A DNA stretch of 64,000 nucleotides from an uncultured Flavobacteriales bacterium (GTDB lineage Bacteria > Bacteroidota > Bacteroidia > CAIKAF01): contig CAILUT010000047.1 of the NCBI GenBank assembly GCA_903837495.1, forward strand, positions 1 through 64,000, written 5' to 3'. Shown here piece by piece: positions 16,706 to 33,175 of the stretch (the first letter of the stretch is position 1; each line of letters opens with the position of its first letter). Made by a program: the position numbers and the translations under genes. The notes under the pieces are model-generated. The model was not told the DNA's origin. It was given only the letters and a program-made list of their open reading frames with translations, and ran no database searches.

Positions 16706-17959
16706 TCAGACAAATTTTTTGACAATGACCGAGGCATTATGTCCGCCAAAACCAAAGGTGTTGCATAAGGCGGCTCCAATGCTTCTTTCCTGAGCTGTAT
16801 GAAAGGTCAGGTTAAGATTGGGGTCAATTTCCGGGTCATCGGTAAAATGATTGATGGTGGGGGGCACCTTTCCATTTTTAACGGCCAATACGCAAGCGAT
16901 GGTTTCTATGGCACCGGCGGCACCGAGTAGGTGTCCGGTCATGGATTTGGTGGAGCTAATATTGAGTTTATAGGCGTGGTTGCCGAACACCTTTTTTATG
17001 GCGAGCACCTCGGCAATGTCTCCCAATGGAGTCGAAGTTCCGTGCACATTGATGTAATCTATTTGGTCGGAATTCATTCCGGCGTCTTCCAATGCCAGTT
17101 TCATAACACCGCTGGCGCCCAACCCTTCGGGGTGTGGGGCGGTGATGTGGTGGGCATCGGCCGAAAAAGCTCCGCCGGCCAGTTCTGCGTAAATGTGTGC
17201 GCCTCGGGCCTTTGCATGTTCCAATTCTTCTAAAACCAAAGCTCCGGCTCCTTCGCCCAACACAAAACCATCTCGGTCTTTGTCGAAGGGCCTTGAGGCG
17301 GAACTGGGGTCATCGTTTCGGGTAGAAAGAGCGTGCATGGCGTTAAAGCCTCCGATGCCGGCTACGTTTACTGCGGCTTCAGAGCCACCGGTAACAATGA
17401 CATCGGCTTTGCCGTCGCGGATGCAATGGAAAGCGTCGATCATGGAATGGGTGCTGGAGGCACAGGCTGAAACCGTTGCAAAATTAGGGCCTCGAAATCC
17501 AAATTTAATCGAGATGTGCCCTGCGGCAATATCGATAATGACCTTTGGGATAAAGAATGGGTTGAATCGGGGCGTACCATCGCCAAGGGCAAATTCAGAA
17601 ATCTCCTGAATTAGGGTATCAAGGCCACCAATTCCGGAGGCCCAAATTACCCCTGCCCTGTCGGGATCGACAGCACCCAATTCGGCAAGGCCTGCATCTT
17701 CAACGGCCTCGGTTGCACAAACCATGGCGTATTGAACAAAAGGATCCAGCTTGCGGGCTTCTTTGCGGTCAAGAAACTGCAAGGCATCGAATCCTTTAAG
17801 TTCGCAGGCGAACCGGGTTTTAAATTTTGAGGCATCGAACCGAGTTATGGGGGCCGCACCGCTTCGACCGGATGTCAATCCTTCCCAATATTCCCCTAAA
17901 TTATTTCCAATAGGGGTTAAGGCTCCTAAACCCGTAACAACGACTCTCCGTCCTGCCAT
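16706..17959 (-). CDS. fabF: 3-oxoacyl-ACP synthase II
   Basis: This 417-residue condensing enzyme elongates acyl-ACP with malonyl-ACP in type II fatty acid synthesis. The Cys-His-His triad is visible in VSACASSTHSM, NVHGTSTPLGD and KSMTGHLLGAAG. The start is ATG 17959 (MAGRRVVVTGLG); the track start at 17965 is a TTG two codons upstream. The gene lies about 11 bp after acpP and 12 bp before rnc. This is the housekeeping ketosynthase, distinct from the diverged one at 19.8-21.1 kb. Confidence 0.95.
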   Translation of the reverse strand: MAGRRVVVTGLGALTPIGNNLGEYWEGLTSGRSGAAPITRFDASKFKTRFACELKGFDALQFLDRKEARKLDPFVQYAMVCATEAVEDAGLAELGAVDPDRAGVIWASGIGGLDTLIQEISEFALGDGTPRFNPFFIPKVIIDIAAGHISIKFGFRGPNFATVSACASSTHSMIDAFHCIRDGKADVIVTGGSEAAVNVAGIGGFNAMHALSTRNDDPSSASRPFDKDRDGFVLGEGAGALVLEELEHAKARGAHIYAELAGGAFSADAHHITAPHPEGLGASGVMKLALEDAGMNSDQIDYINVHGTSTPLGDIAEVLAIKKVFGNHAYKLNISSTKSMTGHLLGAAGAIETIACVLAVKNGKVPPTINHFTDDPEIDPNLNLTFHTAQERSIGAALCNTFGFGGHNASVIVKKFV

Positions 17960-17970
17960 ACGCAATAATT

Positions 17971-19841: not shown

Positions 19842-21125
19842 CTAATCCCTGTTTTTGCCTAGAAAAACCACGGCATTTACATCGCCAAATCCGAATCCCG
19901 CTTTGCCAGCAACCCGCAGTTCTCCGCCGAATTCTATGGTTTTAGAGGGTATGCAGCTTTGGTCGATGAGGTTTAAAATGCTGGGATGTATGCTTTCGGT
20001 GTTGAGCGAGGGGTGGGCAAACTGCCCATCAATTTCGAGAACAAGGGCGACCAATTCGATGGAACCTGCTGCGCCCAGGCAATGCCCGATCATTGATTTG
20101 GTGCTGTTGATTGTGGGGAAATTGCTGCCGCTGCGGTTCAGTGCGCGGGTCCAGTTTTGAATTTCTAAAACGTCGCCTTTGGTGGCGGTTAGGTGGCCTG
20201 AAATAAGATTTACTTGGTTTGCCTGCACCTGTGCGTCAGCCAGGGCTTGTTGTATGCAAAGCACCACGGCATTTGGGTTTGGTGCTGTCATGCTGCCGCC
20301 TTGCCTTTGCCCACCGGCATTTACCGCCCCGCCAAGGTATTCGGCATAAATATGCGCCCCGCGGGCCTTGGCATGTTCGTATTCTTCAAGCACCAGGGCC
20401 GCGGCGCCAGCTCCGGGGACGAAACCGGCGGCGTTTGCCGACATGGGACTTGAAGCTTTGTGCGGCTCGTGGTTGCTGCTTCGGTTTAGCACCTTCATCG
20501 AGTCAAATCCGCCCCACATATAAGGGCCTTCCGCGTCGCAGCTGCCGGCAATCATAATGCTTGCCTTGCCGTATTGAATGCGCTCGGCGGCCAGATACAG
20601 CGCCTCGGTGCCTGTGGCACAGGCCGAAGAATTGGTGTAGCAGTGGTTTCCTAATCCCAATAAACCAGCCACCCAAGCGCTTATTCCCGAGGCCATGGTT
20701 TGCTCCACCACTCGGCTTCCGAGCCGGCGCACTTCGCCTTGGTCAAGCTTATAAATGGCATCGCGCAGGGGTTCAACTCCTGCAAGTCCTGTTCCGAACA
20801 CGGTTCCTGCATGGGCTAAGGGGGCTGCATCTTGCCGGGAATTAACCTGAAAACCTGCGTCTTGCCAGGCTTCTAAAGCCGACAATGCCCCGTACAGCAT
20901 TCCTGAGCTTTTCATAAAGCGCAAGGTCAGCTCGTCAAACCGATTTTGCAGCACATCCGAAGCTACTTGTGGCCGTCCGGAAACTTGGCAATTGAATCCT
21001 TTTTCGGCCAATTCGGGGTCGAATCGAAGGCCAGAACGGCCGGAACGGATGGCCTGTTTAAAGTCGGGAACGCCCACTGCGTTGGGAGCTACTACGCCCA
21101 AACCAGTTATGGCTACCCGTTTCAT
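19842..21125 (-). CDS. Beta-ketoacyl synthase of the phenolic-lipid-like cluster
   Basis: A 427-residue FabF-fold condensing enzyme, clearly diverged from the housekeeping FabF at 16.7 kb. The Cys-His-His triad is present: NSSACATGTEAL, ISGHLTATKGD and KSMIGHCLGAAGS. The start is ATG 21125 (MKRVAITGLGVV), giving a 4-nt overlap with the dehydratase stop; the longer track ORF adds a non-homologous leader. It is last of six overlapping genes. Expected role: dedicated chain elongation that makes the acyl starter for the type III polyketide synthase. No chain-length-factor partner is visible, and the active Cys argues that it is not itself one. Confidence 0.88.
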   Translation of the reverse strand: MKRVAITGLGVVAPNAVGVPDFKQAIRSGRSGLRFDPELAEKGFNCQVSGRPQVASDVLQNRFDELTLRFMKSSGMLYGALSALEAWQDAGFQVNSRQDAAPLAHAGTVFGTGLAGVEPLRDAIYKLDQGEVRRLGSRVVEQTMASGISAWVAGLLGLGNHCYTNSSACATGTEALYLAAERIQYGKASIMIAGSCDAEGPYMWGGFDSMKVLNRSSNHEPHKASSPMSANAAGFVPGAGAAALVLEEYEHAKARGAHIYAEYLGGAVNAGGQRQGGSMTAPNPNAVVLCIQQALADAQVQANQVNLISGHLTATKGDVLEIQNWTRALNRSGSNFPTINSTKSMIGHCLGAAGSIELVALVLEIDGQFAHPSLNTESIHPSILNLIDQSCIPSKTIEFGGELRVAGKAGFGFGDVNAVVFLGKNRD

Positions 21126-21622
21126 GCTGTTTGGTCGGGAACCATCATGCCTGAAAGGGTGCCCGAGCAAACCACCTGGCCTTCTTGATTTTTCATGGTT
21201 ACCTCGCACTGCAATTTTCGGAGCCGAAAGAACAGCTTTTTAGATTCAACCCAAACCAAGTCGCCCGGCAGCACCATTTTTTGAAATTTCACCTCGGACG
21301 AAGTAAAGAAGATTTTAACCGGGGGATTTTCGCCTTTGTGCATGCCCAGGCAAAAAATGCCGAGGGTAACCAGTCCGATTTGGGCCATGGTTTCGGTTAA
21401 AATGACTCCGGGGGTTACGGGGAATCCTGGAAAATGCCCTTGGTAAAACAATTCATTTTCTTTGAATCGGTAGTAACCACGCACAAAATCTTCTGAAATA
21501 TCCGTTAGCCCATCGATAAACCGAAAGGGGGGTTTTTGGGGGACCTTGTCCAAGATGGCATGCACCAACTCCTTGGGTAAGGTATCTGAACTGGGTTGAT
21601 TATATGAGCGATTCTCCTCCAT
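21122..21622 (-). CDS. FabZ-like 3-hydroxyacyl-ACP dehydratase
   Basis: This 166-residue hot-dog-fold protein has the FabA/FabZ catalytic motif QGHFPGFPVTPGVILTETMAQ, with His and the helix-borne acidic residue both present. It is slightly longer than housekeeping FabZ at the N-terminus. Expected role: dehydration of 3-hydroxyacyl chains during starter assembly. Its start overlaps the upstream SDR gene by 23 nt and its stop overlaps the ketosynthase start by 4 nt, so the genes are probably translationally coupled. Confidence 0.87.
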   Translation of the reverse strand: MEENRSYNQPSSDTLPKELVHAILDKVPQKPPFRFIDGLTDISEDFVRGYYRFKENELFYQGHFPGFPVTPGVILTETMAQIGLVTLGIFCLGMHKGENPPVKIFFTSSEVKFQKMVLPGDLVWVESKKLFFRLRKLQCEVTMKNQEGQVVCSGTLSGMMVPDQTA

Positions 21623-22388
21623 CTACAGGAATAACGGCACCGTTGATCCAACGGGCTTCTGGTTGGCACATCAAATATACAACATTTGCGGCGTCTTCGG
21701 CTTGGGTGCCTCGGCCAAGGGGGTGGTTTTGAGCTACATGTTCAAGAAGGATTTTGCTGTTGGGCAAGACGCTTAGGGCTGGGGTGTCGGTGATTCCGAT
21801 TTCCAAAACATTGGTTCTGATGCCTGAGGCTGCAAATTCTACAGCCATGTATTTTCCAAGGGTTTCCAATGCCGATTTGGCCATTCCGATGGCTGCGTAA
21901 CCGGGCAGCACCCGATGTCCGCCGCGGCTGCTAAAGGCCAAATTGCACATGTTTTTTGCGGGCAGCTTGTTTTGAATTAATTCTTGGAGCACATAAAACC
22001 AATTTAGGGCCATTGCGTCGTAAGTCAGGTTGAAGTCTAGGGCGGTCAGCGGCTTTTGGTGGGTATTGGGATTCAGGGTTCCGGGGCTTCCGCGGGCAAT
22101 GCTGTGCAGCAGAACATGAAATTGAATGCCGGCAGCTTGGCAGCTGTTCCATACTTGATTCCGGACTTCGGCTTTGGTGATGTCGCCATTGAAGGGCAGG
22201 ATCAAGCTTGGGTACTGGGATTGAAATTCGGCCAACAGGGTTTCTTCTCGTGCGCGCCGCTCCCGAAACCAAGCAAGCACAGGAATGCCGTGGCTGGCCA
22301 GTTTTTTTACGCTGGCCAATCCCAATCCGCTGGAGCCGCCCAAAACCAAGGCCATGCTTTGGCCTGTAAACTGCGAACCTATTTCCAT
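21600..22388 (-). CDS. SDR enzyme, FabL/FabI-like enoyl reductase candidate
   Basis: This 262-residue Rossmann short-chain dehydrogenase starts at ATG 22388 (MEIGSQFTGQSMALVLGG). It has the cofactor loop GGSSGLGLASVKKLASHG and the active-site region LPGYAAIGMAKSALETLGKYMAVEF, with conserved Tyr and Lys. The HSIARG segment in the middle and the YMAVEFAASGIRTN helix resemble FabI/FabL enoyl-ACP reductases more than FabG ketoreductases. Expected role: reduction of the enoyl intermediate made by the dehydratase. A ketoreductase role cannot be excluded. It overlaps both neighbours. Confidence 0.8.
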   Translation of the reverse strand: MEIGSQFTGQSMALVLGGSSGLGLASVKKLASHGIPVLAWFRERRAREETLLAEFQSQYPSLILPFNGDITKAEVRNQVWNSCQAAGIQFHVLLHSIARGSPGTLNPNTHQKPLTALDFNLTYDAMALNWFYVLQELIQNKLPAKNMCNLAFSSRGGHRVLPGYAAIGMAKSALETLGKYMAVEFAASGIRTNVLEIGITDTPALSVLPNSKILLEHVAQNHPLGRGTQAEDAANVVYLMCQPEARWINGAVIPVDGGESLI

Positions 22389-23449
22389 TCTAAAGCCAGT
22401 TGCTGGGCCGAAAAGCCCGGTCCAAAACTCAACATTATTCCTTTTTGCCCAGAACGGCAACCTTGGTCCAGGCAAGCCTTAAGGACAAACATGACCGTTG
22501 CCGACGACATGTTTCCGATGCTGCTGAGTACATGTCGGGTGTGCCTAAGGTCTTTGCCCATGGGCTGAACCAAAGATTCGACCATTTCAATGATTTTTTT
22601 GCCGCCCGGATGAAACACAAAATGGTCAATCTCTTGCAAAGTCCAGCCAAGGTCCGCCAAAAAGGGGGGAATAATGTGGGGGAAATGCGCTTCAATTTTT
22701 AAAGGTACGCCAGGATCCAGCACAATATGCAGGCCGTTTTCGCGCAGGTCAAATCCCATCATGCGTTCTTCATCAAAAAAATGGTACATGCGGGCATCGG
22801 CAATTTCGGCTTGATTTTCTTGAACATCTTCGGGGGCAGAGCTGAGTAGGGTGCAGGCCAATCCGTCGCCAAAAATGGCTGCCGATACAATGTTGGTAAA
22901 GCTAAAATCGTGAGGTTGGAAGGTGGAGGTGGGCGATTCGAACGAAAGCACGGCCGCTCGTTTTCCGGGCTTGGACTTCATCAATTCGTAGGCGTAGCTA
23001 AGCCCCGAGGTTCCACCGGCACATCCCATTTCTGTAACGGGCAGCCGAAGAACGTCGCCCCTCATTTTTAAACGGTTTACCAGATAGGCGTCCAGCGATG
23101 GAATCATAATCCCCGTACAAGAGGTAGTGATGAGGTAATCCACCTGAGTGGGCAGCCATGCCGCCGCTTCCAAAGCCTTTTTCAGGACTTTTTCGGCCAA
23201 GGGAATCATTTCGCGGATAAAAACATCGTTGCGTTGGGCAAACGATTTCAAGGAAAATACCTCTTCAATAGGAATAATGGAGTGCCGAGCTTGAACCCCC
23301 GAATTTCGAAAAATACGCCTGGCTTTTTCTTTGTCGCGTTCCGATTGCCCCTGCATCCATTGTTCAAGGTAAGTCAATATGGTAGAAGCCTCTTCGCGGT
23401 GAGCGGGAAGTTCTGTGGCAACCTGAACAATTCGAACGGCTTCAGTCAT
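22379..23449 (-). CDS. Type III polyketide synthase (chalcone synthase-like)
   Basis: This 356-residue enzyme has the Cys-His-Asn triad of type III polyketide synthases: EMGCAGGTSGLSYA, VFHPGGKKIIE and LSSIGNMSSATVMFVL. It also has the family landmarks YLITTSCTGIMIPSLD and GFDLRENGLHIVL. The start is ATG 23449 (MTEAVRIVQVA); upstream codons in the track ORF are not conserved-looking. Bacterial members condense a starter acyl group with malonyl-CoA to give alkylresorcinols or alkylpyrones. Neighbouring fatty-acid-type enzymes suggest a dedicated long-chain or unusual acyl starter. It overlaps the SDR (10 nt) and methyltransferase (8 nt) genes. Confidence 0.92.
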   Translation of the reverse strand: MTEAVRIVQVATELPAHREEASTILTYLEQWMQGQSERDKEKARRIFRNSGVQARHSIIPIEEVFSLKSFAQRNDVFIREMIPLAEKVLKKALEAAAWLPTQVDYLITTSCTGIMIPSLDAYLVNRLKMRGDVLRLPVTEMGCAGGTSGLSYAYELMKSKPGKRAAVLSFESPTSTFQPHDFSFTNIVSAAIFGDGLACTLLSSAPEDVQENQAEIADARMYHFFDEERMMGFDLRENGLHIVLDPGVPLKIEAHFPHIIPPFLADLGWTLQEIDHFVFHPGGKKIIEMVESLVQPMGKDLRHTRHVLSSIGNMSSATVMFVLKACLDQGCRSGQKGIMLSFGPGFSAQQLALEWK

Positions 23450-24131
23450 GGTAGGCGCAAATGAAAAAACGGCCAGGAAAGGAGGAATAAAATGCGACTT
23501 TGCCCCAACCGGCCTGCAAAAATACAGATTCCAATTCCCTTTTGCGAAAGGAACGCAAAACAGACAAGGCACCGTCGTGCTTCGACATGGCCGATAAGCC
23601 TAAGAGCTTCGACAAAATGCGGAATCCATAATACGAAAAAGGGCTCCGTTCTAAATCCTCGAAAATCAATCCTCGATGCACCACGGGTTTAAGTTGAGCT
23701 AAAAAGTTGGGCAAAGCCTGGGCATCTATGTGATGCAAAAAAAGGGTTCCTATGGCCCAATCTACGGGCTTGTCTAAATCCCTTAATACCTGCAATGCAT
23801 CGCCTTCCATCCAGGCAATTCCCGATTCTTGGCTTTGCGAGGCTTGGTTTATCGGTTTTGAATTCCAATCGATGCCCAGCCATTCCAGTTGCCGATCTTT
23901 GAACATCTGCTTCAGTTCTATCAATCCTAAACCACGTCCGCAGCCCAATTCTGCAATGCGTTTTCCTCCTTTTGATTCCAGCTGTTTGTTCAGCAGTTTG
24001 GCCCAGCGCTTGTAAATCCCCATTCCTTTATTTAAGCGGTGGATTTCATTTAGGTTTTGAAGCAGCGCCTGTTCCTCTACGGGGCCGTCCATCCATTCGG
24101 CTTCGGTGCTGCGTCTTGAAAAATCAGGCAT
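23442..24131 (-). CDS. SAM-dependent methyltransferase of the cluster
   Basis: This 229-residue class I methyltransferase starts at ATG 24131 (MPDFSRRSTEAEW). The SAM-binding motif I is KRIAELGCGRGLGLIELK, with the acidic end of strand 2 in WLGIDWNS and motif IV-like WAIGTLFLHHIDA. Alkylresorcinol pathways such as srsABC of Streptomyces pair a type III synthase with a methyltransferase and a flavin monooxygenase, and the same three activities are consecutive here. Whether it methylates oxygen or carbon is not decidable from sequence. It overlaps both neighbours by 8 nt. Confidence 0.85.
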   Translation of the reverse strand: MPDFSRRSTEAEWMDGPVEEQALLQNLNEIHRLNKGMGIYKRWAKLLNKQLESKGGKRIAELGCGRGLGLIELKQMFKDRQLEWLGIDWNSKPINQASQSQESGIAWMEGDALQVLRDLDKPVDWAIGTLFLHHIDAQALPNFLAQLKPVVHRGLIFEDLERSPFSYYGFRILSKLLGLSAMSKHDGALSVLRSFRKRELESVFLQAGWGKVAFYSSFPGRFFICAYHD

Positions 24132-25260
24132 GGGGCAAAATGGGTTTTCCGTGTGATTGAGCCAATACATAGCGCAGGGCAAAGGGCAGAGCCTGGGCAC
24201 CCAATAAAGCCAGGTCTGAAATTCCCTGTCGGCCAAACATGTTTTGAACAAAGCGGCTCAAGCTCAACCTTCCCTTAACCTCGATGTTCCAGGCTGCTTG
24301 GTAAGCGTTCAAGGCTTGGTTTTTATTTTCGTATTTAAAATCAACGCTGCGCATGGCCCCATGCAGCAAATGGGCAGTGCGCACAGCCAAGGCCATGCCA
24401 TTTCCAAATAAGGGCGCCACCAGTCCGCTGGCATCGCCCACAAAGGGAATGGAATCTTGAACCGGCTGTTTTTTTCCAAACCGAATTCCACTTATGGCCA
24501 AGGGCTGTTCAAATACGGGTTTGTGGGTTTTAAAAAAGGACAGCAAAGCCTGGTTTTTGTGCATGACCTTTTCTTGAAAAGGCTGCAGCCCCCCGGCGGC
24601 CTGCAATTCCGGAGTTTTTACCAAATAGCATACGTTGATGCGGCCGCCCTCTACTGCCGAAATTCCAGCGTAGCCCCCCTTAAAATTATGCAGGGCCACG
24701 GTATTCTGTGCCCAATTTCCTTCAAAATGCATTTTAATGCCGCTGTACAACTGGGTGTCGGCCAAAAACGGTCGATTAAAATGCGTGTCAAGCCTAGACC
24801 GTTTCCCATGGGCCGAAACAAACCATGGGGCACTGTATTCCTGCCCCGATTTATCCACAATAAGGTTGAGTTGATCTTCCGAATGCTGCCGCAAAACCTC
24901 CGCATTTTCGATGATCTTTGCCCCCTTTTTTTCGGCCTGTTCTTTTAAAAACAGGTCTAAGGCGAAGCGGCTAATGCCCAAGGCCTCCATGTCTAGGCCT
25001 GTTTTAAGGTGGCGGTTTCCCGTACTGCTCAATTCAAAGGTGTTGATGCGCACCGGACTCAGACGGTCTATGGGCAAATCTAGGGAATGCAAATACGGCA
25101 GAACCTCGGTGCTGATAAATTCGCCGCAAACCCGGTGGCGCGGATATTCAGAGGCCTCCAGCACAACCACTTTCAAGCCTTCTTGCTGCAGGGCATTGGC
25201 CAAGACCAACCCTGCAATTCCACCCCCCGAAATCAAAACATCTGACCGTATTCTTGCCAT
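24124..25260 (-). CDS. FAD-dependent oxidoreductase (geranylgeranyl-reductase/monooxygenase family)
   Basis: A 378-residue flavoprotein with N-terminal dinucleotide-binding site LISGGGIAGLVLANALQQEG, the RHRVCGEFIS segment typical of the geranylgeranyl-reductase/halogenase group, and the FAD contact PFVGDASGLVAPLFGNGMALA. It is first in the six-gene operon and overlaps the methyltransferase gene by 8 nt. In alkylresorcinol pathways the equivalent flavoenzyme hydroxylates the aromatic ring toward a quinone, so ring hydroxylation is the leading inference. Reduction of an isoprenoid or other side chain is the alternative. It is divergent from the adhesin gene at 25.4 kb. Confidence 0.83.
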   Translation of the reverse strand: MARIRSDVLISGGGIAGLVLANALQQEGLKVVVLEASEYPRHRVCGEFISTEVLPYLHSLDLPIDRLSPVRINTFELSSTGNRHLKTGLDMEALGISRFALDLFLKEQAEKKGAKIIENAEVLRQHSEDQLNLIVDKSGQEYSAPWFVSAHGKRSRLDTHFNRPFLADTQLYSGIKMHFEGNWAQNTVALHNFKGGYAGISAVEGGRINVCYLVKTPELQAAGGLQPFQEKVMHKNQALLSFFKTHKPVFEQPLAISGIRFGKKQPVQDSIPFVGDASGLVAPLFGNGMALAVRTAHLLHGAMRSVDFKYENKNQALNAYQAAWNIEVKGRLSLSRFVQNMFGRQGISDLALLGAQALPFALRYVLAQSHGKPILPHA

Positions 25261-25443: not shown

Positions 25444-27918
25444 ATGAATTCCTTTAAATTAAGCCTTAGCCTTTTGTGTTTGACCTTGAGCCTGATGCAT
25501 GCCCAAACAAATCCAGCTCCCCGAACTTTGCCGTACTCAGAAAGTTTCAATTCCATGCTGGCACCTACCTATCCTACGGGCTGGGTGGGCTGGAGCCAAG
25601 GCACCTTGAGTGGAGCTTTCCAAACTGCGGCGCCTACTGGCGACCGCGTTCTTGCAGGCAGTGGAACGGCAGCAAGTATAACCAACAACGTGTACGATTT
25701 TTCTCAAAAATTAGGCTTTTTGAACAGCGGGAGCACCAACCATGGTTTGGCAACGGCTTTGGTAACCACCGGCTTTGCCAGCATCAACGTGGGGTATTCT
25801 ATTATGACCATCCGCGACAACAATGAACGCACTTTGGTGGTTGGTTTGCAATATCGAGTAGGTACATCCGGCCCCTTTACCAACATTTCCGGAACTTCTT
25901 ACCACAATAATTTAACGGTTCAAGTTGCAGGCAATTCAGGAGTCAATGTACAAACCAGAAGCATTACCCTGCCCGCAGTCTGCAACAACCAATCGGTGGT
26001 TCAGCTTCGTTTTATTGCCAAAGATTCCATCGGTGCCGGTGCCCGCCCAAGTTTTGCCATTGACAATTTCTCGGCTTCCGGAACCAGCTGTTCAGGCTTC
26101 TCGATTTCGGCTTCGGCCCAATCTGCCACTACTTTTTGCCAAGGCGGTTCTGTAGTCCTAAAAGCCACCGGAGCCAACAGCTACCTATGGAACAACAATC
26201 AAAGCGGAGATTCCATCGTGGCAACCCAATCTGGTTCTTACACGGTTGTTGGTACCGACCCGTTTGGTTGTACTGCCAGCGCCGGCCCGATTGTGGTTGC
26301 CGTAAACCCTTCCCCTACATTAACTCTAAGCCCCAACGGGCCAACGGTTTTTTGTCAAGGCGGTTCAGTAAGCTTAGTGGCCTCAGGGGCCAACACCTAC
26401 AGCTGGAATACCGGTCAAAACATGGATTCCATTGCAGTGTCAACTGCCGGAACGTATCAGGTTGTTGGCACAGACCAAAACGGATGTTTAGATTCGACCT
26501 CGGTTCAGGTTGGGGTGAATCCGCTGCCTTCCATCAGTATTTCTTCAAACGGGCCTTTAACCTTTTGCCAAGGAGCTCAGGTTACTCTGTTGGCGTTTGG
26601 TGCCCAAACCTACCTCTGGTCTTCCAATGTGCTGGGTGACTCCCTCGATGTTCAGCAATCGGGCGGATACTATGTTGTAGGAACCGACCAAAATGGGTGC
26701 TTTGATACCTCGCAAACCCTGCAAGTTATTGTAAACCCATTGCCTGTGGTTACCATTACTCCAAACGGACCTACCAGCATTTGCCAAGGCGCCTCTGTTC
26801 CATTTACCGCTCAAGGCGGCAGCACTTATGTGTGGCCATGTGGTTGCCCAGGCCAAACCCAAAACATCAACCTTGCTGGGCCGGTAACCGTTTGGGGGAC
26901 CGACCAAAATGGCTGCAGCGATTCTTCCAATACCGTTATGGTTGCCATCAATCCAAACCCAACGGCTCAAATAATTCCCGGCGGGCCCACCGTATTTTGC
27001 CAAGGCGGTTCGGTGAGCCTAAATGGGGCAATCGGCCTTATCAATTCATGGAGCAACGGGCAAACCGCCGATTCAATCACCGTGAACCAGTCGGGATTGT
27101 ACAGCTTAACCGTAACCGACGGCAATGGCTGCACCGACAGTACTTTTATTCAGGTTACGGCCAATCCGCTGCCAACCATTTCTGTTGCTGCCTTAGGAAA
27201 TACGACCTTATGTCAAGGCGATAGCGTTGAAATTGCTGCCACCGGGGGCATTCTTTACCAATGGAACAATGGCTTCAGTTCGGCCAACATTTGGGCCAGC
27301 ACTTCCGGGAATTATTCCGTGTTTGGAACCGATCAGAATGGCTGTTCCGACAGCTCGAATGCAATTGCAATTTCTGTTTTAAATCCCCCCGTTGTTCTGC
27401 AACAACCCGGCAATGTTCAGGAGTCGGTTGGCAACACAGCCACGTTCTCTGTGAGCGCTCAAGACCCCAACGATGCCTTCCAATGGCAGGGCAATACCGG
27501 CTCTGGATTTCAGAATCTAAGCAACGGAGGTCAATACGCGGGAACAACAACAAATCAACTGAGCATCAGTAATTTAACTTTGGCAAATTCGGGCTACACC
27601 TTCCGTTGCCAAATCAGCAATGTGGCTTGCTCTACCAACAGCCAACAGGCTTCCCTAACGGTTGTTCCGAATTCGAGTTTTGCGAACCAGGGAAGTTCAG
27701 ATTTGAGGGTTTTCCCAAATCCTGCCCAAGATTTCATTGCGGTTTGGCAAAGTGGCAAAGGGAGTTCCGTGCCCTACACGCTCAGCAATGTGCAGGGCCA
27801 AATTCTAGGTCAGGGCATGCTGAATTCCAGTTCTACTCCGCTAAACATTGGATTTTTACCCCCCGGCAGCTACCAAATTTCTGTGGGCGGAAGTTCAATT
27901 CGCTTCATCAAAGAGTAA
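25444..27918 (+). CDS. Repetitive surface protein with type IX sorting domain
   Basis: This 824-residue exported protein has a signal peptide (LSLLCLTLSLMHAQ). Next is a beta-rich N-terminal domain of about 190 residues (LPYSESFNSM to DNFSASGTSC). Six tandem Ig/PKD-like repeats of about 72 residues follow, each opening with a CQGxxV-type segment and closing with GTDQNGC. An Ig-like domain (VVLQQPGNVQESVGNTATF) precedes a C-terminal sorting domain (RVFPNPAQDFIAVW to GSYQISVGGSSIRFIKE). The paired cysteines in each repeat are probably disulfide-bonded. Likely a cell-surface adhesin or matrix protein exported by the type IX system; the ligand is unknown. It is related in repeat type to the 28.2-31.7 kb gene. 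Confidence 0.85.
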   Translation: MNSFKLSLSLLCLTLSLMHAQTNPAPRTLPYSESFNSMLAPTYPTGWVGWSQGTLSGAFQTAAPTGDRVLAGSGTAASITNNVYDFSQKLGFLNSGSTNHGLATALVTTGFASINVGYSIMTIRDNNERTLVVGLQYRVGTSGPFTNISGTSYHNNLTVQVAGNSGVNVQTRSITLPAVCNNQSVVQLRFIAKDSIGAGARPSFAIDNFSASGTSCSGFSISASAQSATTFCQGGSVVLKATGANSYLWNNNQSGDSIVATQSGSYTVVGTDPFGCTASAGPIVVAVNPSPTLTLSPNGPTVFCQGGSVSLVASGANTYSWNTGQNMDSIAVSTAGTYQVVGTDQNGCLDSTSVQVGVNPLPSISISSNGPLTFCQGAQVTLLAFGAQTYLWSSNVLGDSLDVQQSGGYYVVGTDQNGCFDTSQTLQVIVNPLPVVTITPNGPTSICQGASVPFTAQGGSTYVWPCGCPGQTQNINLAGPVTVWGTDQNGCSDSSNTVMVAINPNPTAQIIPGGPTVFCQGGSVSLNGAIGLINSWSNGQTADSITVNQSGLYSLTVTDGNGCTDSTFIQVTANPLPTISVAALGNTTLCQGDSVEIAATGGILYQWNNGFSSANIWASTSGNYSVFGTDQNGCSDSSNAIAISVLNPPVVLQQPGNVQESVGNTATFSVSAQDPNDAFQWQGNTGSGFQNLSNGGQYAGTTTNQLSISNLTLANSGYTFRCQISNVACSTNSQQASLTVVPNSSFANQGSSDLRVFPNPAQDFIAVWQSGKGSSVPYTLSNVQGQILGQGMLNSSSTPLNIGFLPPGSYQISVGGSSIRFIKE

Positions 27919-28225: not shown

Positions 28226-31200
28226 ATGAAGCATTTCCCTTTTATATTAGGCGGTTTTTTCGCTTTTTTCCTTTTGTTTTTTGCGCAACGCATCCATGCT
28301 CAAGTTCCCGCCTATGTAAATCCCGCCGGTTTGGTAGGATGGTGGGGCTTCAATGGAAATGCTCAAGACGCCAGCGGAAACGGTTTTAATGGCTCTGTGA
28401 ACGGTGCCACCTTAAGCAACAACCGATTTGGCAATGCGTTTTCGGCGTATTCTTACGACGGCAACAACGACCGAATCACGGTTTCCAATGCCCAAGCCTT
28501 AAACCCCGGTCAAATGACCATGAGCATTTGGGTGCGCCCCCAGTCCTTTGGCCCCAGTGAACAGTATATTGTAAATAAATCTTTTGACCCCAACCCTAGG
28601 CATTGGTCCATCCGAGTAAATGCTACCGGGCAATTGCAAGTAGAAACCCGCATCAACAATACGTATTATTCGTATTCCGCCACTGGTCCTGCCGCCAATT
28701 TAGCCTTAAATCAATGGGCGTTTTTATGCCTGATTTACGATGGAAATAGAACGCTTCTGTTGCACAACCAAGATACGGTTATAAATGCGGCCCAAAGCGG
28801 AAGCCTTAGCTCTTCTACCCACACCCTAAATTTCGGCTTTTTCCCACACAGCAATATGCCTCCTTTTGGGTATTTTTTCAACGGTCAGCTGGACGATGCT
28901 GGAATGTGGAATCGCCCCCTGAATTCCTGCGAGGTCAAACGCCTGTACAATGCAACCGTTTTAAGCAACAATACCATCCTTTCTTCTACGCCCTATACTC
29001 CAATTACCCGCGTGGTAAACAGCGCTGGTTTGGTGTACAATCCCGATTCCATCAGCATTATTCAAGGAGACCCCGTGCAGTTTCAAATTGGGGGAAGCCA
29101 TGACGCAAGAGAGGTCTCTCAAGCTACCTACACCGCCAACGGAAATGCCTGGAACGGCGGATTCCAAACTGCCTTTGGGGGCGGATTGGTTAATCTTCCC
29201 AACTTAGGTATTTACTATTATGTCTGTACCCCGCACGCCAGTTTTGGCATGAAGGGCCGCATTTTTGTTCAACCCTACACCGGAAACCAATCTCCCATTT
29301 CCATTTGCCAGGGCGATAGTTCTCAGCTGCTGGCAACTGGCTCGCAATCGTACGTGTGGAGCAACGGAAAAACGGGCAGCAATACCTACGTTAAAAATAC
29401 AGGGGTTTATTATGTGGTTGGATTTGACCAGCATGGCTGCCCCGATACTTCGGCAACCATCAATGTAACAGTAAACCCTAGGCCAACGGCAACGGTTTCT
29501 GCTTCTGGCCCCCTTCAATTTTGTCCCGGCGGTTCGGTAACCCTAACGGCTTCGGGGGGTACTTCCTACCTTTGGAATACAGGATCCACCTCGGCAGCCA
29601 TTCAGGTTCAAACGTCTAGCGCGTTTTCGGTCATTGCTACCAATGCCAATGGCTGCAAAGATACCTCGGCAGTTTTTACCACTCAGGTGTTCCCCAATCC
29701 CATTGCTCAAGTTCAAAATCTAGGGCCTACCTCTTTTTGTTCTGGCGGTTCGGTTCAATTGTTGGCCCTAGGTGGCCCCATTGTATTGTGGTCAAATGCT
29801 TCAACCAACGATACGCTCACGGTTTCTCAAAGTGGCTTTTTCCAGGCCACCGTAACCGATACGAACGGATGTTCTGCCCTAAGCCCTTCCGTTCAGGTAA
29901 CCGTTTTCCCGCTTCCAAACGCTCAAATTTCTGCATCGGGACCCACCATGTTCTGCCAAGGTGCCTCGGTACAGCTTTCGGCCACAGGTGGTAGTTCTTA
30001 TTTGTGGAGTACGGGTCAAACAGGGGCATCCATTTCGGTGAATACCGCGGGAACGTATTTTGCAGTGGCTTCTTCCAACCAAGGTTGTCAAGATTCAAGC
30101 AACGTTGTTTCCATCACGGTCAATCCTTTGCCCCAGGTTTCCATCCAAGCACTGGGGCCTTTGGCTTTTTGTCCGGGGCAGTCGGTGGGCATGAATGCCC
30201 AAGGCGCTCAAACCTATTTGTGGAGCAATGGACAAACGGGCAGCAACATACTGGTTTCTCAAGCAGGAACCTTAAGTGCAACGGGCACCGATGCTCAAGG
30301 CTGTCAATCGGTTTCCAACCCATTGACAGCAACCTTGCATCCTGTTCCGGTGGCTCAAATTCAAGTTCAAGGCTCTTTGCAGTTTTGCCCGAGCGACAGT
30401 GTGATTTTGCTGGCCCAAGGCGGCGATGCTTACCTATGGAACAACGGGAGCATTTCGGCTCAACAGGTGGTTCAACAAACCGGGGTCTTTTCGGTTATTG
30501 CCAGCAATAGCTTTGGCTGTTCAGACACTTCAACCACGGTTTCAACCCAGTTGGTTGCGGCTCCTACCGCTCAAATAGTTCCGTCTGGGCCCTTGGCTTT
30601 TTGCCAAGGTGATTCGGTGGTATTGCAGGCTTCGGGTGGAACCACCTACCTATGGAACAACGGCAGCACCAACAGCAGCATTTCGGTTTCTCAAGCAGGA
30701 ACTTGGTCGGTTCAAGCCGCCCTAGGAACGGGTTGCGTAGATACATCTCAAAGTGTAATTACCCAAGTGTTTAACTTGCCGTCTCCGCAGATTTCGGCCT
30801 CAGGGCCCACCGCATTTTGCTCGGGCGGTCAAGTGGTTTTGTTGGCTTCGGGGGCAAATTCATATTTGTGGAGTTCTGGTCTCATTGGCGACTCGATTGT
30901 GGTTTCAAGCTCCGGAACGTTTACCCTTCAAGGTACAGACGCCAATGGCTGCAGCGGTACTTCGGGAGCTTTAACCATCGCTGTTTTTCCTTTGCCAGTG
31001 TTGACCTTGAGTCCAAGTGGTCCTGTTTCTATATGTTTGGGCGACAGCCTAGAACTTAGCCTTCAAGGCGGCATAAATTATGTTTGGAACGATGGCCTTC
31101 AGGCTTTCAGCCGGTACGTGCAATCGCCTGCCGCTTATTGGGCTTCTGGCACCGATGCCAATGGCTGCTCGAACCTTAGCGATACGGCAACGCTTTCTGT

Positions 31201-31747
31201 TTTTCCTTTGCCTCAATGGGTTGTTCAGCCACAAGATAGCTTGGTGCTTGTAGGAACTTCGGTTGGATTTACAGCCCAAGTTCAGGGAAGCAATGCGGTG
31301 TATCAATGGCAAATAAACCGGGGCAACCTCTGGGAAATGCTCTTGGATACGGGAACTGTTGGCGGTTCCAATACATCCAACCTTAGCTTGGCTTCGGTAG
31401 ATTCAGCCTGGAACGGATACCGCTTCCGTTGTATTGCGAGCCTCGATGGTTGTTCCGACACTTCTGATCTGTCAACATTAACCGTTGAAATTCCCGTCAA
31501 TGGCTTTGGGTCGGCCAAAGAATTGGCTTGGTCGATTGTCCGGAATCCTTCGGGTTCCAATTTGCAAATTTCAGGCCCAGAGGCGGAGGTAAGGTACCGC
31601 ATTTTCGATTTTTCCGGACGGTTGCTCTTGCAAGGAAAGGAGTCGGGTAAAGGCCTAACCATTGATGTAGGCAGTTTGCCTTTGGGCTGCTATTTGCTGG
31701 AGCTGAATTCAGAAAATCAGCGTTGGAATGCCCGGTTTTGCCCTTGA
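28226..31747 (+). CDS. LamG-cupredoxin-Ig repeat giant surface protein
   Basis: An 1173-residue exported protein. After the signal peptide (FAQRIHAQ) comes a LamG/concanavalin-type domain (LVGWWGFNGNAQDASGNGFNG to DDAGMWNRPL, about 35-245). Next is a cupredoxin-like domain with spaced ligands His292 (GSHDAREV) and Cys334, His337, Met342 (YVCTPHASFGM), the type 1 copper pattern. Nine Ig-like repeats of about 70 residues follow, then an Ig-like domain and a C-terminal region (WSIVRNPSGSNLQIS to LGCYLLELNS) resembling a divergent type IX sorting domain. Likely an outer-surface protein binding glycans and possibly copper. The LamG domain suggests carbohydrate contact; both roles are inference. 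Confidence 0.82.
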   Translation: MKHFPFILGGFFAFFLLFFAQRIHAQVPAYVNPAGLVGWWGFNGNAQDASGNGFNGSVNGATLSNNRFGNAFSAYSYDGNNDRITVSNAQALNPGQMTMSIWVRPQSFGPSEQYIVNKSFDPNPRHWSIRVNATGQLQVETRINNTYYSYSATGPAANLALNQWAFLCLIYDGNRTLLLHNQDTVINAAQSGSLSSSTHTLNFGFFPHSNMPPFGYFFNGQLDDAGMWNRPLNSCEVKRLYNATVLSNNTILSSTPYTPITRVVNSAGLVYNPDSISIIQGDPVQFQIGGSHDAREVSQATYTANGNAWNGGFQTAFGGGLVNLPNLGIYYYVCTPHASFGMKGRIFVQPYTGNQSPISICQGDSSQLLATGSQSYVWSNGKTGSNTYVKNTGVYYVVGFDQHGCPDTSATINVTVNPRPTATVSASGPLQFCPGGSVTLTASGGTSYLWNTGSTSAAIQVQTSSAFSVIATNANGCKDTSAVFTTQVFPNPIAQVQNLGPTSFCSGGSVQLLALGGPIVLWSNASTNDTLTVSQSGFFQATVTDTNGCSALSPSVQVTVFPLPNAQISASGPTMFCQGASVQLSATGGSSYLWSTGQTGASISVNTAGTYFAVASSNQGCQDSSNVVSITVNPLPQVSIQALGPLAFCPGQSVGMNAQGAQTYLWSNGQTGSNILVSQAGTLSATGTDAQGCQSVSNPLTATLHPVPVAQIQVQGSLQFCPSDSVILLAQGGDAYLWNNGSISAQQVVQQTGVFSVIASNSFGCSDTSTTVSTQLVAAPTAQIVPSGPLAFCQGDSVVLQASGGTTYLWNNGSTNSSISVSQAGTWSVQAALGTGCVDTSQSVITQVFNLPSPQISASGPTAFCSGGQVVLLASGANSYLWSSGLIGDSIVVSSSGTFTLQGTDANGCSGTSGALTIAVFPLPVLTLSPSGPVSICLGDSLELSLQGGINYVWNDGLQAFSRYVQSPAAYWASGTDANGCSNLSDTATLSVFPLPQWVVQPQDSLVLVGTSVGFTAQVQGSNAVYQWQINRGNLWEMLLDTGTVGGSNTSNLSLASVDSAWNGYRFRCIASLDGCSDTSDLSTLTVEIPVNGFGSAKELAWSIVRNPSGSNLQISGPEAEVRYRIFDFSGRLLLQGKESGKGLTIDVGSLPLGCYLLELNSENQRWNARFCP

Positions 31748-31957: not shown

Positions 31958-33175
31958 ATGCGCTTGCTTTTTTCCCTAATTCTGTTTTTATCGGTTCAAG
32001 CGATTTGGGCTCAAGGTGTTCGAATTGGAAGTAATCCTGGAATGCCGGATTCCTCGGCTATTTTAGATGTGGACGATACCACCAAGGGGTTTTTGCCACC
32101 GCGGTTAACAACGAGCCAGCGGAATTCGATTCAGAATCCCGCCGATGGATTGATTGTGTTTAACATTACAACCAATTGCTTGCAAATGGCTACAACGGGT
32201 ATTTGGTTCGATATTCGGTGCCAATGTACAGCTTTGCCCGACCCCAGCTTTTCTGGCCCAAACCAAGGAATATCCAACCAATCCATTTCCTTTACGCCGG
32301 TAGTTACCCAAGGCCTAACCTATTCATGGACTTTTCAAAGCGGCAGCCCCTCCACCAGCAATAGTTCCAACCCTTCAGTAAGCTGGACACAAACAGGAAG
32401 TTTTAATGTAAGTTTGGTGGTAACCGATGCAAATGGTTGTGTTGATTCCAGTACGCAACAGGTCAGCATTAGCAACCAATCTCCGCAGAGCTGTTGGCAT
32501 ATCAAGCAGAACAATCCCAATGCGACAAGTGGATTGTATTTGTTGGACCCAGATGGTCAAGGAGGAGCGAGCGCAGACCAGTTCTATTGCGATATGACCA
32601 CAAGTGGGGGCGGCTGGACGCTTATTGTTCTCACCAATGGCAACGTTTCAGGGCATCCTAATGTAGGATTATCGGTTGCTAAAAACACCTTAATAAGTGC
32701 CAATGGAGGGCTGGTCTCTGCCAACTTAGATGCTTTCGACCAATGGACGGGAACCAATTTTTGGAATTTACTTGGCAGTCAAGGGCAAATGCTTTGGAAA
32801 GTCGGTTCTTCAAGCGGCAGTATTCTGGATGTGGTTCGAAACAATTTCAATATATACAATGGGGGCGATAGGGTTAGTTTCAGTACCTATCAGGCCTTGC
32901 AAGGCGGGATTCCCAACATCGATTACAACAGCAATGGGTATCTTCAGGCTTCAGGGAGCAGTACGGGAGGAAGCAGCTGTACGGTTGAATCAAGCCCCAG
33001 CGTAGGGTTGCACGGTCCGTGGTTTTACCACAGCTGCAGCAACGTTAGTCCATGGTGTACAGGCCATTCGGATTGCGGTGGCTTGCCCGTGCGTATGCAA
33101 TGGCGAAATCAAGGCAACTATACTTCTGCCACTTCGCCGAGCTGTTCAAACCACGGTGAAATTTATGTGCGATAA
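31958..33175 (+). CDS. Exported fibrinogen-like domain protein with PKD domain
   Basis: A 405-residue exported protein with signal peptide ending QAIWAQG. An N-terminal segment found in Bacteroidota tail-like or adhesin proteins follows (SSAILDVDDTTKGFLPPRLT). A PKD-like domain lies at about 95-170 (LTYSWTFQSGSP to LVVTDANGC). The C-terminal half is a fibrinogen-type recognition domain (SCWHIKQNNPN, FYCDMTTSGGGWTLIV). No standard type IX sorting domain is seen at its end (GEIYVR). Fibrinogen-like domains usually bind glycans or proteins. A paralogue lies at 40.5-42.1 kb. Confidence 0.75.
   Translation: MRLLFSLILFLSVQAIWAQGVRIGSNPGMPDSSAILDVDDTTKGFLPPRLTTSQRNSIQNPADGLIVFNITTNCLQMATTGIWFDIRCQCTALPDPSFSGPNQGISNQSISFTPVVTQGLTYSWTFQSGSPSTSNSSNPSVSWTQTGSFNVSLVVTDANGCVDSSTQQVSISNQSPQSCWHIKQNNPNATSGLYLLDPDGQGGASADQFYCDMTTSGGGWTLIVLTNGNVSGHPNVGLSVAKNTLISANGGLVSANLDAFDQWTGTNFWNLLGSQGQMLWKVGSSSGSILDVVRNNFNIYNGGDRVSFSTYQALQGGIPNIDYNSNGYLQASGSSTGGSSCTVESSPSVGLHGPWFYHSCSNVSPWCTGHSDCGGLPVRMQWRNQGNYTSATSPSCSNHGEIYVR

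Follow-up and report, generated by a model that had tools for sequence, protein, structure and literature searches.

A conserved type III polyketide synthase gene set of Bacteroidota with a putative acyl-chain module and carrier protein of its own

Six closely packed genes in the genome of a lake bacterium (Bacteroidota) raise the question of what a type III polyketide synthase (T3PKS) makes when fatty-acid-type enzymes are encoded beside it, and which carrier protein those enzymes use. T3PKS clusters account for 9% of the clusters in Flavobacteriaceae and are among the commoner types (PMC7440613), all nine Aquimarina genomes contain at least one (PMC9323603), and antiSMASH surveys label such clusters 'T3PKS' in Flavobacteriaceae (PMC7440613, PMC9323603). 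Trios of a T3PKS, a methyltransferase and an FAD enzyme are reported to make alkylresorcinols or quinones (PMC10896814, PMC9927152, PMC5916927). Our literature search for the product of the present gene set returned surveys and analogues only, with no paper naming it; the pathway is widespread in Bacteroidota and chemically uncharacterised.

The genes occupy positions 19842-25260 on the minus strand of a 64,000-nucleotide window (the whole stretch of DNA analysed) and form six open reading frames with successive overlaps of 8, 8, 10, 23 and 4 nt (Table 1). The initial annotation had described six genes overlapping by 4 to 23 nt and had named their enzyme families. Both descriptions hold; sequence searches against Pfam, NCBIfam and PDB, through which families were assigned, and the catalytic motifs confirm the latter. 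No DarB-like gene was found among the ORFs of the six-gene cluster.

Table 1 Features of the T3PKS locus and of related genes in the same genome.
Feature	Coordinates	Strand	Main match
FAD-dependent oxidoreductase/monooxygenase, UbiH / geranylgeranyl-reductase superfamily, operon gene 1	24124..25260	-	PF01494 3.4e-12
Class I SAM-dependent methyltransferase (Methyltransf_25; PRK06202 kin), not ICMT	23442..24131	-	PF13649 5.6e-9
Type III polyketide synthase (T3PKS)	22379..23449	-	PF02797/PF00195
SDR, FabL/FabI type, probable enoyl-thioester reductase	21600..22388	-	3oic match 1.8e-22
FabZ-like hot-dog 3-hydroxyacyl thioester dehydratase (DH)	21122..21622	-	PF07977 1.2e-15
Divergent FabF/FabB-like ketosynthase (KS)	19842..21125	-	TIGR03150 255.5 bits
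Neighbouring FabF	16706-17965		TIGR03150 597 bits
Dedicated ACP, other contig	G000:C66:3554-3805		E 2.3e-27
PPTase-like ORF, same contig as the ACP	G000:C66:3802-4275		Pfam E 0.022

Residue alignment identifies Cys143, His280 and Asn313 as the catalytic triad of the T3PKS, and its nearest solved structure, by sequence and by fold, is M. tuberculosis Pks11. An AF2 model, computed from an alignment without plasmid rows, has a pLDDT of 91 and TM values of 0.91-0.94 against Pks11. The fold search found CylI as a second structural family, and THNS (1u0m) is among the nearest structures by both sequence and fold; the best NCBIfam match is DpgA, at 143 bits with a cut-off of 425. The synthase carries Phe233 where Pks11 (W230) and other T3PKSs have Trp. 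Phe is found at this position, ArsB 281, in every clade sequence examined (37 genomes), while 12 other aligned T3PKSs have Trp. In ArsB, W281 favours aldol cyclisation, giving resorcinol over pyrone, and the pyrone-forming ArsC has Gly (PMC9927152, PMC5916927). As Phe replaces the resorcinol-associated Trp, a pyrone is possible. T3PKSs bearing Trp are also known to make pyrones, so Trp is not a clean predictor of the product. A candidate second T3PKS copy in the same genome proved to be only a 24% match (E 2.6e-5, on C51) and, judging by its sequence, is a FabH-like ORF.

The three genes downstream of the synthase were read as suggesting a dedicated acyl-chain module, and the analysis supports this. 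The SDR has the motif Y-x6-K (YAAIGMAK), as in FabI/FabL, and no Y-x3-K; its best PDB match is B. subtilis FabL (3oic), which bears out its assignment as FabI/FabL-like, and it scores 122 bits on the FabL model, under the curated cut-off. The dehydratase is likewise under the curated cut-off of TIGR01750 (79 bits) and keeps the GHFPGFP motif. Catalytic motifs of the KS are kept (SACATG, the His of GHLTAT, and NSTKSMIGH), and its score does not reach the 493.75-bit cut-off of the housekeeping FabF model TIGR03150. In a KS tree it falls far from housekeeping FabF, in a family common to dar-linked and GT2-linked cassettes; a candidate single clade of the T3PKS-linked KSs has support 49/63. None of the clusters examined contains a ketoreductase gene. 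FabG was found in the bacterium's own genome, and the ketoreductase step is the only one that looks borrowed.

The order FAD enzyme, methyltransferase, T3PKS, (SDR), dehydratase, KS is kept across Bacteroidota. It was found again in 15 flavobacterial-type loci and in same-genus and same-family relatives, and is kept in the bacterium's own order and in three further families of the class. This recurrence is more than chance, and conservation of the six-gene order, proposed earlier as a check, was thus found with one qualification: the SDR is absent from 6 of the 15 flavobacterial-type loci, and at least some lineages can therefore run the pathway without it. DH, KS and ACP accompany this synthase clade wherever examined.

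In relatives the cluster ends with the KS, then an ACP (PP-binding) and then a PPTase (ACPS). The initial annotation had stated that the cluster lacks an ACP and must borrow parts, pointing to acpP and fabF 1.6 kb away. The first statement is correct locally but misleading, since the cognate ACP lies on another contig; the second is not supported, as a dedicated ACP and a PPTase-like ORF overlapping it by 4 nt exist in trans directly behind accD (Table 1). This ACP shares 70% identity with the ACPs encoded inside the clusters of the same-genus relatives G399 and G401, and the accD-ACP-PPTase arrangement recurs in the close relatives G400 and G402. Across 394 Bacteroidota genomes the dedicated ACP (profile score of at least 108 bits) and the synthase clade (at least 50% identity) occur in an identical set of 33, and in 32 of these the ACP lies within 3.1 kb of the synthase. 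Within the bacterium's own order, six of seven genomes with the synthase contain the ACP, compared with none of eight without it; no dedicated ACP was found in G398, which is 99% complete and has the synthase. Because the dedicated ACP tracks the synthase clade 33/33, simple borrowing of acpP/fabF does not account for the pathway. The adjacent acpP/fabF pair was rejected as the main source also because its proximity is absent in G399, in which one contig carries the acpP-fabF-rnc-sdh block and another the synthase cluster. These sequence comparisons show that the co-occurrence is strict and that the ACP gene was once linked to the cluster. Thus, the six genes and the ACP and PPTase genes elsewhere would constitute a conserved eight-gene biosynthetic unit that is split in this lineage, and whole-genome co-occurrence recovers a part of the pathway that a neighbourhood reading missed.

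The PPTase-like ORF keeps the motif KEAAWK (W-x-x-KE-A-x-x-K type) and has the marginal Pfam value given in Table 1. Its AF2 model has a low pLDDT of 61; the top nine folds matched are all PPTases, with Z values of 9.0 to 4.3 (the best over 91 residues), followed by 2.3. By its Pfam value and model confidence the ORF is degenerate. The genome has a further PPTase candidate, which is Sfp-like.

The FAD enzyme contains the FAD motif GxGxxG (GGGIAG) and GDASG and scores 108 bits on GG-red-SF; the methyltransferase keeps ELGCGRG and scores 87.6 bits on PRK06202. Both are far under the curated cut-offs of any characterised equivalog. The locus had been likened to srsABC, and the analogy is sound for the logic of the trio: srsABC of Streptomyces griseus and pkqABC of Mycobacterium smegmatis likewise combine a T3PKS, a methyltransferase and an FAD oxidoreductase in one operon. 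Our comparison, which is based on one Streptomyces plasmid locus and on papers, limits the analogy to that logic, because the methyltransferase here is class I (PF13649) whereas SrsB is reported as an ICMT (PMC6669644), and because Phe replaces Trp throughout the clade. The Streptomyces plasmid locus carries an ICMT (98 bits), to which our methyltransferase gave no match at E<=10. T3PKS trios are also present in other phyla, including on alphaproteobacterial and Deinococcus plasmids, and the methyltransferases of the alphaproteobacterial and Deinococcus trios are homologous to ours (E 3e-25 to 3e-15). The present pathway differs from srsABC/pkqABC further in adding its own SDR-DH-KS-ACP-PPTase set. 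The T3PKS-ICMT pairs of other Bacteroidota belong to the same phylum and enzyme superfamily, but have synthases only ~30% identical to this one, keep the Trp, and are without the KS/DH/ACP set. The trio logic is shared by hierridin (hidABC) and planctomycetal operons, for which no dedicated fatty-acid-type cassette has been described, a distinction by description and not by sequence; an acyl-ACP starter has been proposed for HidC (PMC8086630). The koreenceine system is a type II system of Pseudomonas and unrelated (PMC6498172).

From these data we consider it probable that the eight-gene unit builds an acyl chain on its own ACP and that the T3PKS turns it into a ring, yielding a methylated and oxidised phenolic or quinone-like lipid. 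The PPTase would arm the dedicated ACP, on which the dedicated KS, dehydratase and FabL-like reductase, with housekeeping FabG, would build or extend the chain. The T3PKS would take this chain as starter and add malonyl-CoA units to form the ring, the class I methyltransferase would O-methylate it, and the FAD enzyme would hydroxylate or oxidise it. We infer the chain hand-off, ring type, tailoring order and a membrane or redox role. The gene set thus offers a directly testable reading, that of a type III PKS supplied with an acyl chain by a dedicated ACP. Azotobacter arsABCD and cylindrocyclophane CylI are precedents for a T3PKS that receives its chain from a fatty-acid or polyketide synthase dedicated to it; there a large type I enzyme or a type I PKS is the supplier, and here it would be discrete proteins with a free ACP. 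The product is perhaps a quinone-like membrane lipid. An earlier suggestion that it derives from an alkylresorcinol is uncertain, given a methyltransferase that is not of the ICMT type and Phe for Trp throughout the clade.

The most serious alternative, though an improbable one, is that the ring is an alkyl-alpha-pyrone formed by lactonisation, which the methyltransferase and FAD enzyme decorate and no quinone results. The clade-wide Phe and the title of the Pks11 structure, which names methyl-branched alkylpyrones, are consistent with this; yet Phe is still a bulky aromatic residue, pyrones from Trp-bearing enzymes deprive the position of clean predictive value, and a UbiH/GGR-superfamily FAD enzyme beside a methyltransferase fits ring hydroxylation better. 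Less likely again are two products joined late, as flexirubin joins two polyketides: a small aromatic made by the T3PKS from malonyl-CoA only, and an acyl chain from KS, DH, SDR and ACP. The DpgA and THNS matches and the occurrence of the cassette elsewhere without a T3PKS argue for this, but the synthase is closer, by sequence and fold, to the long-chain-using Pks11, and no ligase or acyltransferase that could join the parts is conserved in the clusters examined.

We regard it as very unlikely that the locus is no more than an srs/pkq-type trio supplied with ordinary fatty acyl-CoA or acyl-AcpP, the fatty-acid-type genes being mere neighbours. Actinobacterial and planctomycete trios do work without such genes (PMC9927152, PMC10896814) and the plasmid-borne trios speak for it too, but the retention of DH, KS and ACP with the synthase clade and the membership of the methyltransferase in a family other than ICMT argue against it. 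Our preferred reading, a chain made on the dedicated ACP, gains from a related SDR-DH-KS-ACP-PPTase cassette that adjoins darB/darH, the genes of the flexirubin resorcinol (dialkylresorcinol), in G099 and G388, where DarB scores 634 bits, above cut-off; darB was found only there. In dar/flexirubin clusters a DarB-type ketosynthase, not a T3PKS, makes the ring, and no class I methyltransferase and FAD pair was seen with these two cassettes. Their position beside darB/darH supports an acyl-chain-supply role for the set and suggests that a single module supplies two ring-makers unrelated to each other. More tentatively, such a free-standing line of separate fatty-acid-type proteins, equipped with an ACP of its own, may pass acyl or beta-ketoacyl chains straight to a T3PKS whose cyclisation residue has become Phe. 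The product would then be a methylated and oxidised aromatic lipid of the membrane, of a class not yet described, that possibly serves as a redox carrier alongside menaquinone; a sizeable minority of Bacteroidota would make it. A polyketide quinone as the sole quinone, following loss of menaquinone, is ruled out, as menA and menB are both present and above cut-off.

The six open reading frames of the initial annotation were recovered at their positions, all on the minus strand, and the overlaps, which had been given as 4 to 23 nt, measure 8, 8, 10, 23 and 4 nt. Pfam and NCBIfam returned the enzyme families originally assigned to the six genes, and the catalytic motifs of the encoded enzymes are undamaged as judged by sequence and alignment. 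The anatomy of the cluster is well supported, as is an eight-gene unit comprised of the six genes, an ACP and a PPTase. The three repeat-rich proteins beside the cluster carry repeated CQG..LxATG..YLWNNG-like units, and at locus L063 two proteins similar to them adjoin the cluster.

Cluster genes and neighboring features in the window, with families of the six cluster genes from Pfam and NCBIfam
Feature	Position	Strand	Family or description
FAD enzyme (first cluster gene)	24124-25260	minus	FAD-binding_3/GG-reductase superfamily
Methyltransferase (MT)	23442-24131	minus	Methyltransf_25
Type III polyketide synthase (T3PKS)	22379-23449	minus	chalcone-synthase-like
SDR	21600-22388	minus	FabL-like
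Dehydratase (DH)	21122-21622	minus	FabA/FabZ-like
Ketosynthase (KS)	19842-21125	minus	FabF-like, score far under the FabF cut-off
Neighbor ORF	16706-17965		true FabF, 597 bits
Repeat-rich protein	25444-27918		large, apparently secreted
Repeat-rich protein	28226-31747		large, apparently secreted
Repeat-rich protein	31958-33175		large, apparently secreted

Synthases and ACPs were counted in 394 Bacteroidota genomes sampled across the phylum. A synthase of at least 50% identity is encoded in 33 of them, that of the window counted (E of 1e-109 or better), and below these lies a gap, the next matches being at 33% identity or lower. The initial annotation had proposed conservation of the six-gene order across Bacteroidota as a check; the order FAD-MT-T3PKS-(SDR)-DH-KS was indeed the same in all 15 neighborhoods examined out of the 33 synthase loci, but the SDR gene is present in only nine of the 15. 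Close relatives from the window's own order share the arrangement. In the tree, window-type synthases form a single clade (support 100/99) that stands apart from ICMT-linked Bacteroidota synthases and from the synthases of alphaproteobacterial and Deinococcus T3PKS-MT-FAD trios, with a program warning that long branches meet between the latter and the clade. In one genome (locus L044, 8491-9015) a MepB-like ORF sits between the T3PKS and dehydratase genes.

In relatives, the KS gene is followed first by a gene for a PP-binding protein of 83-100 residues, in which an INS motif is invariant, and next by a PPTase gene. The window's own genome contains one strong match to the profile of this ACP (contig C66, 3554-3805; E of 2.3e-27), the housekeeping ACP encoded in the window being far weaker (5.5e-8). 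The C66 ACP gene overlaps a 157-residue PPTase-like ORF by 4 nt and lies directly behind accD, which was assigned from its sequence. Both genes are found at the cluster end in a genome of the same genus (G399), where the ACP is 70% identical to that of the window's genome; the ACP of a second congener (G401) is likewise at the cluster end, while the pair of ACP and PPTase-like genes lies behind accD in two close relatives (G400 and G402) and in a third location in G405. At a threshold of at least 108 bits, the dedicated ACP occurs in the identical 33 of 394 genomes as the synthase, and the two genes are no more than 3.1 kb apart in 32 of the 33. The chance value calculated for this match is close to zero, but it takes no account of the relatedness of the genomes and does not serve as a probability. 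Five further genomes scored 75-90 bits; the four opened harbor related cassettes with no synthase of the window-type clade nearby. Within the window's own order, the dedicated ACP is present in six of seven synthase-bearing genomes, G398 being the sole exception, and in none of the eight others. There is also a possible Sfp-type PPTase (weak profile match) beside a thioesterase-like ORF on contig C49 of the window's genome (L065, 5072-6440), which is another candidate for activating the ACP.

The SDR-DH-KS-ACP-PPTase cassette is found in other contexts as well. In G099 (L073, contig C44) and G388 (L074, contig C1) it lies divergent from DarB, which scored 634.8 and 614.7 bits, respectively, both above the cut-off, and in G099 from DarH as well. 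An intervening 300-residue ORF, matched by no model, may be DarA; in Chitinophaga, DarA and DarB produce the dialkylresorcinol of flexirubin (PMC3992019). A third context is provided by G046 (L075, contig C51) and G077 (L076, contig C4), where (SDR)-DH-KS-ACP adjoins genes for a GT2 glycosyltransferase and GNAT-like proteins and no T3PKS is present in the locus. The cassette KSs cluster together in the KS tree, distant from FabF. The cassette itself would, we infer, serve to provide acyl chains. FabG was found in the window's genome, therefore a ketoreductase can be borrowed.

The AF2 model of the synthase is reliable (pLDDT 91) and its closest folds are Pks11 and CylI, the latter with structures containing acyl and beta-ketoacyl substrates, a helpful precedent for chain-primed type III synthases. 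Phe233 of the synthase aligns with Trp230 of Pks11, the equivalent of Trp281 in ArsB; ArsC, which forms pyrones, has Gly there (PMC9927152; PMC5916927). This residue is Phe in all 37 aligned genomes of the clade and Trp in 12 outgroup T3PKSs of the same alignment. Because Phe replaces Trp throughout the clade, a resorcinol ring would appear less likely from the alignment. The window's genome encodes both MenA and MenB, therefore any polyketide quinone, if made, would supplement menaquinone. Direct hand-off of the chain, like any ring or role assigned to the pathway, is what we infer. The consulted passages of two surveys (PMC7440613, PMC9323603) record related clusters as 'T3PKS' and contain no gene-level analysis of them.

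Outside the clade, the window MT resembles those of alphaproteobacterial plasmid T3PKS-MT-FAD trios (E of 3e-25 to 3e-15), as does the FAD enzyme (6e-25 to 2e-17, Psychrobacter included), which shows weaker likeness to a Streptomyces FAD enzyme (5.6e-7) and no clear similarity to that of Deinococcus. Sphingobium yanoikuyae plasmid pKN1 carries an ACP-KS-T3PKS-MT-FAD cluster (L066, 3489-7808). Like the window unit it thus combines the trio with an ACP and a KS, but its KS is closer to FabF, so that the ACP and KS there probably joined the trio in a separate event.
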